Part shown: piece after piece, positions 15,238-43,813 of the stretch
How positions within the stretch are numbered: the first letter of the stretch is position 1
Layout of the letters: every line of letters starts with the position of its first letter
Assembly: GCA_017303395.1 (NCBI GenBank)
Contig: JAFLBN010000005.1
Span: 62,001-126,000, forward strand
DNA: 64,000 nt
Source: Chitinophagales bacterium
GTDB lineage: Bacteria; Bacteroidota; Bacteroidia; Chitinophagales; Chitinophagaceae
Reading direction: 5' to 3'
Notes under the pieces: model-generated
Database searches by the model: none
What the model was told of the DNA's origin: nothing
The model's input: the letters and a program-made list of their open reading frames with translations, nothing else
Position numbers and translations under genes: made by a program

Positions 15238-15321
15238 GTTAATCGCTCGTTAACCGATTGCAAATCCCGTGTTAACCACGGGTAAATATTTCGCATAAGC
15301 TATTGTTACAGACCATCTTTG
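15238..15321 (+). promoter_or_regulatory. 11-bp-phased direct-repeat array A with orphan promoter
   Basis: Boxes GTTAAT (15238), GTTAAC (15249), GCAAAT (15260), GTTAAC (15271), GTAAAT (15282) and a weak GCATAA (15293) start exactly 11 bp apart. A -7-like CATCTTTG follows at 15314-15321, 32 bp after the GTAAAT box. The layout matches arrays B and C, which drive secreted-protein genes. Here no gene follows; the transcript would read the hairpin array. Confidence 0.7.
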
Positions 15322-15383
15322 TATCATCAAACAGACAAACAAAACAAACCACACTACAAACCATATTCAAACCGAAAACAAAA

Positions 15384-15764
15384 GACCGGCTCCGTAAAGC
15401 AGGCAAACATAAAAGACCAACTCCGTAAGGCTGGCAAAAAAAGAAACAAAAGACCGGCTCCGTAAAGCAGGCAAACATAAAAGACCAACTCCGTAAGGCT
15501 GGCAAAAAAAGAAACAAAAGACCGGCTCCGTAAAGCAGGTACATACAAAAGACCAACCCCGTAAGGTTGGCAAACAAAAAAAGACCCGCCCCGTAAGGCA
15601 GGCAGCAACAAGAAAGGACATGGGCGGTACCGTAATACCACCATTTTAGCCGAGGATACAGCGCAGCCCCTGTAGGGTTGTGAAAAGAAGAGAAAACTCC
15701 CAAAGCATTGAAAACAGCCCTGTAAGGCTGAGAATGAATAAAAGCAACCCCGTAAGGTTGCTTT
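15384..15764 (+). repeat. Array of about 11 hairpins with a near-constant CCGTAA loop and varying stems
   Basis: Units near 15386, 15418, 15454, 15486, 15522, 15553, 15585, 15622, 15664, 15714 and 15741. Examples are CCAACC-CCGTAA-GGTTGG, CAGCC-CTGTAA-GGCTG and AAAGCAACC-CCGTAA-GGTTGCTTT. Stems differ but pair within each unit; several show one mismatch or a G-T pair. The first four units form two identical 68-bp direct repeats (15384-15451, 15452-15519). Minus-strand open frames here are by-products of the repeats. Confidence 0.8.
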
Positions 15765-15768
15765 TATT
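15741..15768 (+). terminator. Terminator-like last hairpin of the array
   Basis: Nine perfect pairs (AAAGCAACC with GGTTGCTTT) around CCGTAA, followed by TATTTA. Confidence 0.5.
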
Positions 15769-15918
15769 TAACTAAAACAGACAAACACCAACAATATGCT
15801 GACTAGCTTTATTATCATATCATTTATCAGGAAGATAAAACAACTGATGCCGCCTGAACAACACAGCCGCAGGCACAGTTTATATCCGTAAACACACTTC
15901 TGCCATGCACCAACATTA

Positions 15919-15943
15919 CCACAGCAACTGCTGTGGTTTTTTT
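15919..15943 (+). terminator. Rho-independent terminator
   Basis: CCACAGC, loop AACT, GCTGTGG, then seven T. It ends any transcript from array A before array B. The bases between 15770 and 15919 hold only a doubtful 31-codon frame. Confidence 0.75.
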
Positions 15944-15988
15944 ATTTTCCATACTACTGCTGACAATCAAACAATTACGCTATAGTTA

Positions 15989-16072
15989 GTTAATACATCG
16001 TTAACCGGATGTAAAACGGGCGTTAACCCGCCCTGTTTTTAGTGTTAACCACTAATTGTAGTGATATTTTTG
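15989..16072 (+). promoter_or_regulatory. 11-bp-phased direct-repeat array B and promoter
   Basis: Boxes GTTAAT (15989), GTTAAC (16000), GTAAAA (16011), GTTAAC (16022) and, two turns on, GTTAAC (16044): spacings 11, 11, 11 and 22. A perfect -7 TATTTTTG follows at 16065-16072. No good -33 TTTG exists; the last GTTAAC occupies that position, so the promoter probably needs an activator bound to the array. Several boxes are centres of inverted repeats (TTAGTG-TTAAC-CACTAA). Confidence 0.7.
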
Positions 16073-16107
16073 TATCACAAGCCAAAACAAACAACGAACT
16101 AAAACAA

Positions 16108-16656
16108 ATGAAAAAGATAACCGCCATATTCATAACACTCATCTGCAGCGCTACTGCATTTGCACAAAACGCCGGTAGTTCAGCTTCGCAAACAACCAAC
16201 CTACAGCTAACCAATGCTATAGAAATTAGCTTTGTAGCTACAGGAAACAATACAGGGTCTGTGGTAAACCTGGCATTTAATACCGTAAACGATTATGCGA
16301 ATGGCGTACAAAGCGGCGATTATCAGATACGTATAAGAAGCAACAGGAAATTTGACGTAGAAATGGAAGCATCTGATGACTATTTCGATTATACAGGGAC
16401 AACCTCTCCTGCCCCGCAGATGCGTGTAAAAGACGTACTGGACATGATGATATCATCAAACAACACAGGTGGTCAGATAAATGGCGGCTACCATCAATTC
16501 AAACACATAGAAGGCGATAACGACAAGCGTATCCTTAACGATTGTGATAACGGCGCCAACCAAACCTTTTCTGTAAAATACCGCGCAACACCCGGCTTTA
16601 GCTATCCCGCAGGCACATATACAACAACTATTACATATACAGCAACGCAAGACTAA
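16108..16656 (+). CDS. Secreted beta-sandwich protein, paralogue 1 (WxL/DUF4402-like)
   Basis: The start is ATG 16108, which gives the signal peptide MKKITAIFITLICSATAFAQ; the upstream in-frame ATG is inside array B's promoter region. The mature protein is Asn/Thr-rich beta-structure: an N-terminal LQLTNAIEISF strand, and a C-terminal FSYPAGTYTTTITYTATQ, the ending typical of WxL/DUF4402-like and coat-type sandwich domains. The 182-aa precursor is clearly paralogous to the next gene (shared NGANQTF-V-YxATPG). It is probably exported to the periplasm or surface; the role is unknown. It is regulated by array B. Confidence 0.7.
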   Translation: MKKITAIFITLICSATAFAQNAGSSASQTTNLQLTNAIEISFVATGNNTGSVVNLAFNTVNDYANGVQSGDYQIRIRSNRKFDVEMEASDDYFDYTGTTSPAPQMRVKDVLDMMISSNNTGGQINGGYHQFKHIEGDNDKRILNDCDNGANQTFSVKYRATPGFSYPAGTYTTTITYTATQD

Positions 16657-16691
16657 GATTTTCATATAGCACTAATTAATGGGTAAACAAG

Positions 16692-16716
16692 GAGCGCTTT
16701 CGTTGCGCTCTTTTTT
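16692..16716 (+). terminator. Terminator after paralogue 1
   Basis: GAGCGC, loop TTTCGTT, GCGCTC, then six T. A near-identical hairpin follows paralogue 2, so the whole transcription unit was duplicated. Confidence 0.8.
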
Positions 16717-16734
16717 GTTTTTTTATCGTATTTT

Positions 16735-16819
16735 GTTAATGGCTCGTTAATGACTTGTAAACTGGTTGTTAACGACTGGTAAATAATTTGCTAATGGCCG
16801 GTATATGAATGCATATTTG
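16735..16819 (+). promoter_or_regulatory. 11-bp-phased direct-repeat array C and promoter
   Basis: Boxes GTTAAT (16735), GTTAAT (16746), GTAAAC (16757), GTTAAC (16768), GTAAAT (16779), GCTAAT (16790) and a weak GTATAT (16801) start exactly 11 bp apart. The -7-like CATATTTG is at 16812-16819, 33 bp after GTAAAT, matching array A to within one base. The ATG of paralogue 2 is 20 bp further on. Confidence 0.7.
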
Positions 16820-16839
16820 TAGCACCAACACCACATTAC

Positions 16840-17400
16840 ATGAACAAAAACATCATCGCTTTATTTATCATCCTCACCGCTACCCTCCTGAAAACAACTA
16901 CAATATTTGCCCAAACAGCCTCTGCAGGTGGTTCTCAAAAAGTATCGCTGGCATTGGCAAACGTGGTGCAGATATCGCAGTTCAACGGACAGGGAAGTAA
17001 CGGAACGGTATCAATGCCAATGACAACGGCAGCGACAATGAACCAAGGTGTAGAGAGCCCGCTTTATACGGTATCCATCAATAGTACAGATGGGTTTGAC
17101 GTAAAAGCACAAGCAGTGGACGAATATTTTACCTACAGTGGTACGGCCGCAACAACGCCTGCCATGAAGGTAGCAGATGTACTGGAGTTGAAAGTGGTAC
17201 AGAACAATACTACAGGCAACATTGCCGGTGGACACACCCAATATCAGCCTGTACAGGGTACTAACCAATCTCCTATCATCCAAAATGGCAATCGCGGTGC
17301 AAACCAGACGTTTGCTGTGCAGTACAAAGCCACACCGGGCTACAACTATCCCGGAGGTTTATATACAGCAGCAATAATGTATACAGTGACACAGTTTTAA
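16840..17400 (+). CDS. Secreted beta-sandwich protein, paralogue 2 (WxL/DUF4402-like)
   Basis: Signal peptide MNKNIIALFIILTATLLKTT then IFAQ; 186-aa precursor. It aligns along its whole length with paralogue 1: LALANVVQISQ at the start, GFDVKAQAVDEYFTYSG in the middle, GANQTFAVQYKATPGYNYPG near the end. The family type is the same: exported Asn/Thr/Gly-rich sandwich of unknown role, perhaps a surface or fibre subunit. It has its own array (C) and terminator, so each copy is a separate transcript. Confidence 0.7.
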   Translation: MNKNIIALFIILTATLLKTTTIFAQTASAGGSQKVSLALANVVQISQFNGQGSNGTVSMPMTTAATMNQGVESPLYTVSINSTDGFDVKAQAVDEYFTYSGTAATTPAMKVADVLELKVVQNNTTGNIAGGHTQYQPVQGTNQSPIIQNGNRGANQTFAVQYKATPGYNYPGGLYTAAIMYTVTQF

Positions 17401-17430: not shown

Positions 17431-17454
17431 GAGCGCTTTCGTGCGCTCTTTTGA
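17431..17454 (+). terminator. Terminator after paralogue 2
   Basis: GAGCGC, loop TTTCGT, GCGCTC, then TTTTG; a copy of the hairpin at 16692. Confidence 0.75.
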
Positions 17455-17466
17455 CATTTATATACT

Positions 17467-17497
17467 TTTGTAAAAACTACATTTTGTTGTATTTTTG
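17467..17497 (+). promoter_or_regulatory. Consensus promoter of the large terminase gene
   Basis: TTTG at 17467-17470, exactly 19 bp, then TATTTTTG at 17490-17497: a perfect Bacteroidota vegetative promoter, 20 bp before the ATG at 17517. Confidence 0.75.
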
Positions 17498-17516
17498 CAA
17501 ACAAGTATTTATCACC

Positions 17517-18797
17517 ATGACCTACACTACCCTATATGACCGCCTGATGGCAGCAGACAAACGTTTCATTCTCAGTTATGGCGGCACAGCCAGTGGCAAA
17601 AGCTTCAGTGCCATACAAAAAGAAGTTTCCATTGCAGATACCCGCAAAGTAAAAACACTGGTAATACGAAAAGTAGCCAACACCTTGCGAGACAGTGTTA
17701 TTCCCGGATTCCGTTCGCGTATTGAAGAAATGGGACTAACAGAAAAATTTTCAGAAAACAAGAGTGACCGTACACTGAAGCACGAAAATGGCTCTCAAAT
17801 CATCTTCCGCGGGCTGGACGACCCCGATAAACTGAAAAGTTTTGAAGGACTGGAACGCATATTGGTTGAAGAAGCTGCCGAGCTGGAATTTGAAGACTTT
17901 CTGGAGCTGAACCGCCGCGCACGCGGCAGGGAAAACATACAAATAACTCTTGTCTTCAACCCAATGCACGAAGAGCATTGGCTGAAAAAACATTTTTTCG
18001 ACCGTAAGGATATGGATGAAGACTGCATAAAAATCCACAGCACCTACAAAGACAATCCGCACCTTACAGATGCTGACCGTAAGCAGATAGAACTACTGAA
18101 ACAATACAACGAAAACCAGTATCGCATCTACGCACTGGGCGAATGGGGCATACGAGAAAATAATGCCCCATGGCTGTTCGCATTCGATAAGCAACGCCAT
18201 GTAAAGAAAGAGATAGACATTATGCCCTCGTTCCCCATCTACCTGTCTTTCGACTTTAACCGAAACCCGCTTACGTGCCTTGTTGCGCAAATGAGCCCTA
18301 ACAAGGGGCAGGCAAACAGCTTTATTCATTTCATTGATGAATTCAGTGTAAAAGATCAACTACCTGAGCTATGCAGGCAGATACATGCTAAATACAAGGG
18401 CCATACCATATACATAACGGGCGATGCCAGCGGTAACCATGGCGATGTGGGCTTTGAAGGAAAGAACGACAGCTACTATACCATGATACGCAGTATGCTG
18501 AACCTAAACAGCAGGCAAGCCATCCTTAACAGCCGCAACCTGACACACAACGACAGCCGTGCGCTTATTAACACCTTATTGTTTCAGTACCCGAATATCT
18601 GTATATCAGAAACTAGCTGCCCATTGCTGATACGCGACTGCACCATGGCAATGGTAGATGAAGACAGCGAAGTGCCCGGGGCTTTAAAGAAAGACAGAAA
18701 CATCTATAAGATGGACCTGTTCGACTGTTTCAGGTATTTCTTCCAGACGTTTTTCAAAGACTATGCAACCAGAATAACGCTAGGCAAGGCAGCATGA
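17517..18797 (+). CDS. terL: Phage terminase large subunit
   Basis: This is the packaging motor: the ATPase drives DNA through the portal and the nuclease cuts concatemers. ATG 17517 is chosen because it follows the promoter and gives a normal 426-aa length; the longer frame would start inside the promoter. Walker A GGTASGKS is at residues 22-29, Walker B ILVEEAAE near 115-122. The RNase H-like nuclease shows LSFDFNRNP near 240, TGDASGN near 300 and a C-terminal MDLFDCFRYFF. The PBSX-type family is complete with no frameshift, so probably functional. It is separated from the other phage genes by 4 kb of host-type genes and lies on the opposite strand. Confidence 0.92.
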   Translation: MTYTTLYDRLMAADKRFILSYGGTASGKSFSAIQKEVSIADTRKVKTLVIRKVANTLRDSVIPGFRSRIEEMGLTEKFSENKSDRTLKHENGSQIIFRGLDDPDKLKSFEGLERILVEEAAELEFEDFLELNRRARGRENIQITLVFNPMHEEHWLKKHFFDRKDMDEDCIKIHSTYKDNPHLTDADRKQIELLKQYNENQYRIYALGEWGIRENNAPWLFAFDKQRHVKKEIDIMPSFPIYLSFDFNRNPLTCLVAQMSPNKGQANSFIHFIDEFSVKDQLPELCRQIHAKYKGHTIYITGDASGNHGDVGFEGKNDSYYTMIRSMLNLNSRQAILNSRNLTHNDSRALINTLLFQYPNICISETSCPLLIRDCTMAMVDEDSEVPGALKKDRNIYKMDLFDCFRYFFQTFFKDYATRITLGKAA

Positions 18798-18802
18798 TGT
18801 AA

Positions 18803-19537
18803 CTATTTTTCATTCATCATCTTATTCAGTTCATCTTTATTTTGCCTGGAAACGGGTATTGCAACACCATTTGACATATGTAGTGTACCGGGATGTTCGT
18901 ATCTCTTTACATGCTTCAGGTTTACAATAAACGAGCGATGCACCTGACAGAAAGAAAAGCCATCAAGCATTGGCCTGTATTTACCAATACTGTAAGAGCT
19001 CAGTAATTTGTCATCAGCTAGCACTACGCTTGTGTACCTGTTGATAGACTCGAGATACAAAATATCGTTAACATCAATATAGTCTACACCTTTTTGCGAT
19101 GGTATGCCTATCTTATTATTATGAGTTGGCTGTATAGTAACGCCGGAAACTGCTGCCCTTTTATGATTAATGCGCTCAATAGCTTTATTGATTGTCTTGT
19201 ATAGCAATGTATCATTAATGGGCTTCAACACATAACCTGTTGCACCAAAATTGAACGCGTCGATTGCATGTTCTGAATGTGCAGTAACAAATATCACTTC
19301 ACTTTTCAGTTCTGGCACCAGTGCCAGTAAATCCATGCCGTTTTTTTGTGGCATAGATATATCCAGAAAGACGATGTCGTAATCCTGTGTTTTCATCGCC
19401 TGCAGTGCTGGCTTCCAGTTATTATATGATGCAACTACTTCAACATTACCGTATAGCTCTGTTATGCTATCCTGCAATAGTTCTACGGCTTTAGGCTCAT
19501 CGTCTACAATTATGCATTTGTATGTGCTATTTATCAT
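18803..19537 (-). CDS. LytTR-family response regulator, 244 aa
   Basis: N-terminal receiver (acid pocket VDDE at 11-14, phospho-acceptor Asp59 in FLDISMP) and a C-terminal LytTR DNA-binding domain (LYLESINRYTSVVL, then FCQVHRSFIVNLKHVKRYE). LytTR domains bind pairs of short direct repeats. The gene starts inside the 3' end of the upstream kinase (11-bp overlap), so it is the cognate partner. It ends 5 bp from the terminase gene, convergently. It is the nearest transcription factor to the phased arrays at 15.2-16.8 kb, but a link is only a guess. Confidence 0.92.
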   Translation of the reverse strand: MINSTYKCIIVDDEPKAVELLQDSITELYGNVEVVASYNNWKPALQAMKTQDYDIVFLDISMPQKNGMDLLALVPELKSEVIFVTAHSEHAIDAFNFGATGYVLKPINDTLLYKTINKAIERINHKRAAVSGVTIQPTHNNKIGIPSQKGVDYIDVNDILYLESINRYTSVVLADDKLLSSYSIGKYRPMLDGFSFCQVHRSFIVNLKHVKRYEHPGTLHMSNGVAIPVSRQNKDELNKMMNEK

Positions 19538-42172: not shown

Positions 42173-43813
42173 ATGAAAAACCTACTGATACTACCCTTAT
42201 TGTTAATCTCCCTTCATGCTGCTGCACAAGCACCATACGTTATAGATTCTGTATACAGACCTGGAGATTCCGCAGCATTACCGCAGTATTTATGCAGCGC
42301 AAATGGCAAAGTATTCTTTAGCGGTGGCAATCACTATGGACGCAAACAGCTATTTGCTTCAGATGGCACCATTGCGGGTACTGCAAAGGTGAAAGATATT
42401 TACCCAAACAGCTACTGTCTCCCATCACTTCTTACAGAGCTGAATGGCAAAGTTTTATTCAGCGCCATAACTGACTCTCCATACAATTATGAACTTTGGA
42501 TTACAGATGGAACCTCTGCCGGCACCAATATGGTAAAAGATATCGTTCCCGGCGCAAAAGGTTCATACCCAAAAGATTTAATAAAAGTTGGTAGTAAAAT
42601 ATATTTCACTGCTAACGACGGAATAAACGGGACGGAATTATGGATAACGGACGGAACGAATGCAGGTACCAAAATGGTGAAAGACATAACGCCGGGCGGC
42701 GCATCTACAACATTTTCAGGGTTTAAATCCTTTGGTGGCAAGCTGTACTTCTCTACAGGAGATTTTTGGGTAAGTGATGGTACAACTGCAGGAACACAGA
42801 AAATACGATCGAATTTCACATCGGTTACAAATCATGCTGAATATAAAGGCAAAATGTACTTTGTAGCTAATGACGGAACACATGGAAATGAACTATGGTG
42901 CAGCGATGGTACTACAGCCGGCACTACTATTGTAAAAGACATATTCCCGGACACTAATTTTGGGGCCAAACCTTGCGTACCTGTTGTTTTCAAGAATGAA
43001 CTCTATTTTGCAGCAGATGATAGTGTACATGGCAGCGAAATGTGGAAAACCGATGGCACAGCAGCAGGTACTACAATGCTCAAAGACATAGTACCCGGCA
43101 TAAATAGCGGAATATTGGTGCTTCCTAATACTGCTACATTACATATGACTGAAATAGCTGTGGTAAACAACAAACTGATATTTGCCTCACGAAACATTGC
43201 AAATAACTATGAATTATGGAGCAGCGATGGCACCACTGCAGGCACAAACCAGATAGTAACCATGAACCCTACAGGATATTTTTCGCCGAGAAATTTCTTT
43301 GTATATAAAAACAGGATGTTATTTCTTGGCAATGTAGGTGGCAATGTCGATGTCTACAGTACAGATGGTACGGCTCCAGGCACTTTTAAACTAAGCCCTC
43401 CGGGGCTGACCACGTTCCCTACCTTGGGCAACATGAACTTGTTTGGCGGATATGTTTTGCATTCTGACGGTGCCGTATATCTGAACGCATCGTTTACCTC
43501 TAATTATGATGAGCTATGGCGCATTAAAGACACATCAGCAGCACTTTCGGTAAACAAGACGGAAACTAATACTAACTCATCAACCATCTACCCCAACCCT
43601 AGCGATGGCATTTTTACATTGCAACTGGAAAATACCAATTTTCAGCATGGCTGTATTACAGTGTATGATGTAACAGGCAAGCTGGTATATCTGCAAAAAG
43701 AAATACCACAGACACCGATACACAACGTAAAAATTGACGCACCTAAAGGCATCTACCTGTTGAAACTGCAACTGGATGATACTATACAAACCAAACAGAT
43801 AGTAATAGAATAA
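42173..43813 (+). CDS. T9SS-secreted ELW-DGT repeat protein 3, 546 aa
   Basis: Signal peptide MKNLLILPLLLISLHAAAQ. Repeats are more worn than in proteins 1 and 2 (one reads only FWVSDGTTAGTQKIR), with a longer spacer near residue 320. The T9SS tail (FTLQLENTNFQHGCITVYDV) again matches its neighbours at near-identity. It is separated from protein 2 by a terminator, so transcribed alone. Same expected fold and location. Confidence 0.85.
   Translation: MKNLLILPLLLISLHAAAQAPYVIDSVYRPGDSAALPQYLCSANGKVFFSGGNHYGRKQLFASDGTIAGTAKVKDIYPNSYCLPSLLTELNGKVLFSAITDSPYNYELWITDGTSAGTNMVKDIVPGAKGSYPKDLIKVGSKIYFTANDGINGTELWITDGTNAGTKMVKDITPGGASTTFSGFKSFGGKLYFSTGDFWVSDGTTAGTQKIRSNFTSVTNHAEYKGKMYFVANDGTHGNELWCSDGTTAGTTIVKDIFPDTNFGAKPCVPVVFKNELYFAADDSVHGSEMWKTDGTAAGTTMLKDIVPGINSGILVLPNTATLHMTEIAVVNNKLIFASRNIANNYELWSSDGTTAGTNQIVTMNPTGYFSPRNFFVYKNRMLFLGNVGGNVDVYSTDGTAPGTFKLSPPGLTTFPTLGNMNLFGGYVLHSDGAVYLNASFTSNYDELWRIKDTSAALSVNKTETNTNSSTIYPNPSDGIFTLQLENTNFQHGCITVYDVTGKLVYLQKEIPQTPIHNVKIDAPKGIYLLKLQLDDTIQTKQIVIE

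Follow-up and report, generated by a model that had tools for sequence, protein, structure and literature searches.

A 64,000-nucleotide stretch of the genome of a Chitinophagales bacterium of the family Chitinophagaceae (assembly GCA_017303395.1, contig JAFLBN010000005.1, positions 62,001 to 126,000), hereafter the window, carries three arrays of short direct repeats (A, B and C) upstream of three promoters. We propose that these arrays are probably tandem sites for dimers of a response regulator of the OmpR/PhoB family, most likely an RprY-like protein of the same genome that we call RR-A, which would bind them in an ArcA-like manner. Judged by comparative signs, these arrays are genuine, conserved and functional. 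The same four-repeat ladder, with one box for each turn of the helix, stands at dozens of promoters in a group of environmental Bacteroidota. The principle of the repeat array is known from ArcA and PhoB of Escherichia coli, while the regulon itself is new and unusually rigid.

The initial annotation of the window had described boxes of the GTTAAY type at a pitch of exactly 11 bp before the three promoters, and a reading of the window sequence bears this out (Table 1). When two mismatches were allowed, a three-box pattern of this pitch matched 12 times in the window against 0.30 (standard deviation 0.58) expected, and none of 100 shuffled windows reached 12 matches. Scoring with a 44-bp position weight matrix (PWM) gave 58.0, 48.3 and 43.2 for arrays A, B and C and 2.4 for the highest match elsewhere in the window, once shifted-register and reverse copies of the arrays were set aside. 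The matrix was trained on 24 of 30 loci of the host genome; L073, L081-L084 and L086 (L and G numbers are our handles for loci and genomes) were left out, their matches starting inside the model. A search of the window against Rfam gave no match. The count of five to seven boxes per array offered in the same annotation proved too high. Comparison across promoters reveals a conserved core of four boxes, and the fifth step is the place of the -33 region.

The four-box core has the consensus GTTAAY-N5-GTTAAC-N5-GYAAA-N6-GTTAAC-N5. In the 24 promoters of the PWM, boxes 1, 2 and 4 invariably open with GTTA, followed by A in 23 or 24 promoters, while box 3 is mostly G-C/T-AAA. We then consider 88 distinct arrays with a PWM score above 20 in the fetched loci, a set that includes the training promoters and several near-copies of one another. 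In 79 of these arrays (22 of 26 in the host genome and 57 of 62 in other genomes), the offset between box 1 and the TTTG of the -7 element is 79, 80 or 81. A -33 TTTG occurs at offset 51 or 52 in 40 of the 88, that is, 27-29 bp before the usual -7 TTTG, and the spacer between the -33 TTTG and the -7 element measures 19-21 bp in arrays that have both. Two Bacteroides promoters with a 19-bp spacer between these elements are listed in a section of PMC6193735. With these offsets, and with both elements moving together by 1 bp in promoter C, the array ends directly upstream of the -33 region. The distances of 32 bp (array A) and 33 bp (array C) to the -7 element reported previously hold when counted between the first base of the fifth box and that of the -7 element. 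The statement that the promoters lack a good -33 TTTG is right for promoter A, which has TTTC there, and for promoter B, which has no TTTG there, but wrong for promoter C and for the 40 arrays just mentioned. The alignment of the boxes on one helix face, the fixed promoter distance and the conservation of the arrays before the same kind of gene in relatives all fit the suggested cooperative activator, acting close to the promoter.

The arrays define a regulon that extends through the host genome (3.76 Mb in 44 contigs), in which the three-box pattern, when one mismatch was allowed, matched 26 times and the reversed pattern once. Genes B and C, downstream of arrays B and C, belong to a secreted protein family with 23 matches in this genome. 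By inspection, 15 of the 23 paralogs have a four-box array with box 1 at 112-148 bp before the start codon. Another five (L047-L051, on contigs C18, C40 and C10) have a shorter form, whose GTAAAC/GTTAAC boxes lie upstream of the -7 element at a distance greater by 21-22 bp; four of these loci show two clear boxes, while the boxes of L047 are degenerate. The remaining three (L052, L056 and L057) showed no array on inspection. The leaders of L047-L051 also have in common an element like ACTACTAA-GTTAGTGATG and a CCCCGTAAGGC sequence. A model built from 20 such promoters (R1) found 35 sites in the host genome at E<1e-3, those beyond the paralogs including a lipoprotein-like gene (L079), a small membrane-protein gene (L086), the gene at L074, and array A.

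The initial annotation had proposed a search for the boxes in related genomes, and this check found them conserved. Among 147 genomes of the same family, R1 gave a match at E<=0.01 in 38, of which 12 had at least five sites (hereafter array-rich); the other genomes had none to three. At most 28 candidates were scored per genome, so that the counts are lower bounds: at least 28 in G000, 26 in G050, 26 in G136, 22 in G117, 22 in G079, 21 in G132, 18 in G020, 17 in G042, 12 in G033, 9 in G094, 8 in G062 and 5 in G144. A second genome of the same genus, G356, has 13 R1 matches. In a sample of the order, 6 of 298 genomes matched at E<=1e-4, all of them of the same family, the share of the 298 that lies outside the family not being shown. 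In the fetched loci of relatives, other genera included, the genes that follow the arrays are homologs of this paralog family or belong to several other small families that the genomes share.

An OmpR/PhoB-type regulon is expected to have tandem direct repeats with a pitch of about 11 bp, and the window arrays have them. The initial annotation had left this family unconsidered, though 11-bp direct repeats are typical of it, and had known of no described system with such an array; passages of two papers on E. coli ArcA describe GTTAA direct repeats at 11 bp (PMC7303359, PMC3798270). The ArcA consensus in the former is TGTTAA-N5-TGTTAA, and the latter counts 92 sites in E. coli that comprise three to five repeats each, spaced mainly by 11 bp. 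The likeness to the window arrays, as far as these passages go, lies in the GTTAA core and in the 11-bp direct repeats. However, ArcA sites vary in number, position and orientation (PMC3798270, same passages), whereas here four boxes keep one fixed promoter phase. RR-A also differs from ArcA in that it is not an ArcA equivalog, scoring 123.8 bits against PRK11173 with a cut-off of 334. Boxes of the PhoP/PhoB type usually have fewer repeats than the window arrays. They share units of 11 bp with these arrays but differ in core sequence, the PhoP units given in an excerpt of PMC9019756 being GTTCACC in Streptomyces, TCACAGC-N4 in M. tuberculosis and TGTTTA-N5 in E. coli.

RR-A is encoded outside the window (host contig C16, positions 42181-42873) and is one of nine regulators of the host genome with a Trans_reg_C domain. 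It belongs to the OmpR/PhoB family and represents the L031 orthogroup. Its match to PF00486 (Trans_reg_C) reaches 62.6 bits with a cut-off of 26.2, making it a candidate with receiver and winged-helix domains, and solved structures of OmpR/PhoB regulators match it along most of its length. Its best NCBIfam family is that of RprY of Porphyromonas and Bacteroides (NF051850, 236.8 bits), yet the score lies under the cut-off of 370 and RR-A does not qualify as an RprY equivalog. We placed it in a tree of 83 sequences that combined the Trans_reg_C matches of the other 11 array-rich genomes (78, with three fragments unfetched) with those of the host, one of 84 loci having dropped out. RR-A was found in 11 of the 12 array-rich genomes, the miss being G144, which is 69% complete. 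Furthermore, RR-A is present in 17 of 18 genomes with an R1 match at E<=1e-4 against 69 of 147 overall (Fisher p=1.3e-5), a p-value that is only indicative because the ortholog cut of E<=1e-65 was chosen post hoc and the genomes are related. The segment GRSMDVF, which we take to be the recognition segment, is identical in all 23 aligned RR-A proteins.

A kinase adjoins RR-A in the operons of relatives. A scan of about 9 kb around RR-A in each of six array-rich genomes found no open reading frame (ORF) of at least 150 residues with a kinase motif, and RR-A thus lacks an adjacent kinase of the RprXY type there. Among full-length kinase matches in array-rich genomes, the best reach 30-33% identity and lie on other contigs or far away, with none in G033. 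The RprY of Porphyromonas gingivalis is likewise described, in portions of PMC6032018 and PMC3646045, as an orphan after loss of its kinase RprX, so that the orphan state is common to it and to RR-A of array-rich genomes. In those portions of the two papers, no RprY binding motif was found by term. In five array-rich loci (L285 and L287-L290), RR-A lies near a very large repeat protein gene and a gene encoding a ..AQDIHFSQFYEN protein. We take the latter to be PorP/SprF-like, with a possible link to type IX secretion.

The neighbourhoods of RR-A in array-poor relatives provide a second line of evidence, in that GTTAAY repeats at 10-11 bp stand before the kinase-RR-A genes. Ten of 40 array-poor genomes with RR-A have an R1 match beside it. 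In G091, G086, G048 and G038, the single best R1 match of the genome (E 7e-7 to 6e-5) is on the strand of RR-A, 1.7-1.8 kb upstream of it; a weaker one (E 1.4e-4 to 0.31) lies within about 1.5 kb of RR-A in G039, G028, G071, G085, G109 and G009. In G029, R1 matches lie nearly 6 kb from RR-A. The corresponding ten loci (L275-L284) had been fetched for an R1 match near RR-A; their 32 matches (18 places) are therefore biased by selection, and we leave them out of the case for enrichment. Four loci fetched alongside them (L291-L294) had no pair. Between the repeats and the kinase-RR-A genes of L275-L278, from the first four genomes, lies a gene for a small secreted Lys/Thr/His-rich peptide of about 85 codons. 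In L280, L283 and L284 (from G028, G109 and G009), further GTTAAC repeats separate RR-A from a downstream operon, the first genes of which presumably encode efflux components.

Because the first genomes had drawn attention by their own R1 matches, we fetched 40 further RR-A neighbourhoods (260 kb), the remainder after those RR-A loci, less G040, G081, G034 and G129. They hold 24 matches to GTTAAB-N4-5-GTTAAB at 20 distinct places in 12 of the 40 genomes. Nineteen of these pairs have the 11-bp pitch, and the spectrum of box distances (19 at 11 bp, 8 at 21 bp, 5 at 10 bp and 4 at 32 bp) is that of the helical repeat. A pair stands at about -1.3 to -1.4 kb from RR-A in 10 of the 40 genomes, and a motif scan showed that a kinase frame starts at that point in eight of them (none in G019 and G108). 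We also chose loci by protein alone, taking the best 80 of 587 alignment matches to RR-A; among the named genomes in this set, only Niastella (57%, L312) is clearly RR-A-like, the rest being at most 50% identical. The 29 Bacteroidota loci of the set have 10 pair matches, seven of which lie at -2000 to -1000, in four loci that include Niastella and Draconibacterium. The 51 more distant loci, mostly non-Bacteroidota with at least four Bacteroidota among them (L342, L349, L352 and L357), gave no pairs.

Loci of other regulators served as controls. In array-rich genomes, 73 such loci (194 kb) gave a single GTTAAB pair, and a search for four-box arrays in the 400 bp upstream of each of the nine host OmpR/PhoB regulators gave best scores of only 14-18 of 24. 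In array-poor genomes, 20 loci of the next-closest regulators (L033- and L034-type) had no pair at 11-bp pitch. Pitch separates RR-A, with its 19 pairs at 11 bp, from this control.

A number of observations nevertheless weigh against RR-A as the binding protein, and they bear on the alternative that another OmpR/PhoB regulator of the host (L033-type, RprY-like L034, or PhoB-like L028 or L030) binds the arrays. In array-poor genomes, 9 of 11 L033-type loci have one GTTAA pair, in every case at 10-bp pitch and typically GTTAAT-N4-GTTAAT; each is probably the control site of the regulator itself, and the pairs lie roughly 1.3-1.8 kb from it (among L441-L460). When pitch is ignored, the density of pairs around RR-A (20 places in 260 kb) is like that of the L033/L034 control (9 in 132 kb), and given the GTTAA core of the L033-type pairs, a GTTAA pair alone is consequently not specific for RR-A. 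The L034-type segment GRSMDVY is nearly the same as GRSMDVF, and other orthogroups are likewise found in most of the 12 array-rich genomes (11 for L034-type, 11 for L028-type and 10 for L030-type). Five genomes (G092, G026, G011, G105 and G097) have RR-A at 70-76% identity and no R1 match better than E=0.0057; the presence of RR-A alone is not sufficient for arrays. No pair was found in 28 of the 40 further RR-A neighbourhoods, nor in those of G026, G097, G001 and G031, and the six array-rich neighbourhoods examined have no repeat beside RR-A. Around RR-A of array-poor genomes the repeats show both 10-bp and 11-bp steps, whereas those of the window keep strictly to 11. Finally, RR-A of the array-rich genome G136 (L289) has an internal TAG that leaves a shortened open frame; if the gene is truly broken at this point, that would speak against the model. 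An 11-bp direct repeat would suit any OmpR/PhoB member. However, the L033-type pairs are never at 11 bp, the L033 clade and its sister reach at most 8 of the 12 array-rich genomes in the tree (with none in G020, G117, G136 and G094), none of nine L034-type loci of array-poor genomes has any GTTAA pair, and the other-regulator loci of array-rich genomes are nearly devoid of pairs, as noted above. On the strength of the L033/L034 control we lowered our confidence in RR-A from high to reasonably good, and raised another OmpR/PhoB regulator from doubtful to a standing that is still unlikely. It may be that related regulators have the GTTAA core in common and are told apart by pitch, RR-A using 11 bp and the L033-type 10 bp.

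The initial annotation had pointed instead to a LytTR response regulator encoded in the window (Table 1), which would bind alternate boxes at 22-bp pitch. Its gene lies 1.4 kb from gene C, and a LytTR match at E<=1e-20 occurs in all 12 array-rich genomes. Yet the best homologs are only 29-30% identical in array-rich G020 and G117. In the nine remaining array-rich genomes other than the host they range from 43 to 54%, with 43-44% in G094 of the same genus, and paralogs cannot be told from orthologs there. The host itself has a second copy (48% identical), and no LytTR ortholog could be followed across the array-rich genomes. Only 4 of the 82 LytTR matches in array-rich genomes are within 2.5 kb of an array (148 listed), against about 1.6 expected if evenly placed. 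The four include that of the window and a 53% homolog in G050 that lies 1.8 kb from an array and is the best point in favor of LytTR. LytTR sites, whose repeats are about 9 bp long, and the window arrays are both direct repeats upstream of a promoter on one helix face. In sections of PMC6193735, LytTR repeats are mostly separated by 12 bp, in a minority by 11 or 13, and the LytTR-like operons of Bacteroides show 11-bp repeats with 11 bp between them, which match the 22-bp distance of alternate boxes. Such pairs, separated by 11-13 bp in those sections, differ from four boxes at 11-bp pitch. The Bacteroides repeats listed there are without GTTAA, and in the arrays boxes occupy nearly every 11-bp step, though alternate boxes would suffice for a 22-bp distance. 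The proximity count led us to raise LytTR slightly, from next to negligible to highly improbable. We also regard it as quite unlikely that the GTTAAY repeats of the arrays are recognized by a repressor or by a regulator from an unknown family. A passage on ArcA describes repression by occlusion of RNA polymerase (PMC3798270), whereas an array that ends upstream of the -33 region, in fixed phase in 79 of 88 cases, suggests the geometry of a promoter-proximal activator.

If RR-A is the protein that occupies the arrays, it would bind the GTTAAY boxes and act as an activator. The four core boxes would take two head-to-tail dimers on one face of the helix. These dimers would end directly upstream of the -33 region and could recruit RNA polymerase from there. 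In the clade of the window, RR-A may have lost its neighboring kinase and its self-regulation, and the regulon may have spread to the secreted-protein paralogs and to a hairpin-repeat RNA downstream of array A.

Table 1. Repeat arrays, promoter elements and associated features of the window (positions are those of the window).
Feature	Coordinates	Strand	Description
Array A	15238..15298	+	core boxes at 15238, 15249, 15260 (GCAAAT) and 15271; 11-bp pitch
Array A, beyond core	15282 (GTAAAT), weak 15293	+	
Array B	15989..16049	+	boxes at 15989, 16000, 16011 (GTAAAA) and 16022, a skipped step, then 16044
Array C	16735..16795	+	core boxes at 16735, 16746, 16757 and 16768; 11-bp pitch
Array C, beyond core	16779, 16790 (GCTAAT), weak 16801	+	
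-7 region, promoter A	15315..15325	+	ATCTTTGTATC; 77 bp after box 1; TTTG at 15318-15321
-7 region, promoter B	16066..16076	+	ATTTTTGTATC; 77 bp after box 1
-7 region, promoter C	16813..16823	+	ATATTTGTAGC; 78 bp after box 1; TTTG at 16816-16819
-33 TTTG, promoter C	16787..16790	+	displaced by 1 bp jointly with the -7 element
Predicted non-coding hairpin-repeat transcript of promoter A	15326..15775	+	about 450 nt
Gene B	16108..16656	+	182 amino acids, signal-peptide-like; member of paralog family; 43% identical to gene C
Gene C	16840..17400	+	186-amino-acid secreted protein, same family as gene B
LytTR response regulator	18803..19537	-	response-regulator and LytTR domains; kinase neighbor

The secreted family of genes B and C had been labeled WxL/DUF4402-like. 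This label was not confirmed: no DUF4402 match appeared, and the family had no significant match in Pfam or NCBIfam, the best scores being sub-threshold (NF058581, a Pam pilin, E=0.0027; PapG_N, E=0.017 in 4 of 16 members). The predicted structure of the gene B product, computed from two window sequences, is beta-rich and of low confidence (pLDDT 58.7). It had no match in the PDB at E<=0.001, and we consequently claim no fold for it. A surface or fiber function of the family is a guess. Between gene C and the LytTR gene lies a phage terminase large-subunit gene (Terminase_3, E=2.4e-50; window positions 17451-18797).

Directly downstream of array A there is no credible gene, the longest ORF seen having 48 amino acids. 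The region of the predicted transcript contains seven 23-bp hairpin units of the form AAGACC..CCGTAA..GGC in 15382-15603, three 68-bp repeats, and a terminator-like hairpin near 15738-15773. Folding of the whole transcript was only mildly better than that of shuffles (z -1.6). In the host genome, the hairpin unit occurs in the array A region only, apart from one looser match with three mismatches immediately downstream of the L078 array. Since single hairpins of related sequence occur in the leaders of some regulon genes, the RNA of array A may act back on those genes, for example by titrating a hairpin-binding factor. The bolder proposal, that an orphaned RprY-like regulator is the master switch of a rigid regulon made up of dozens of secreted-protein paralogs and a hairpin RNA of about 450 nt that acts back on it, we regard as very doubtful.

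The arrays offer a concrete and testable cis-code for RprY-like response regulators in Bacteroidota. A shared GTTAA core read at different pitch would, if true, constitute a simple spacing code for related regulators. The combination of strict phase with an expanded regulon of paralogs makes this a clean system in which to study how OmpR/PhoB activators act at Bacteroidota promoters, and the regulon raises the question of what activates a regulator without a neighboring kinase.

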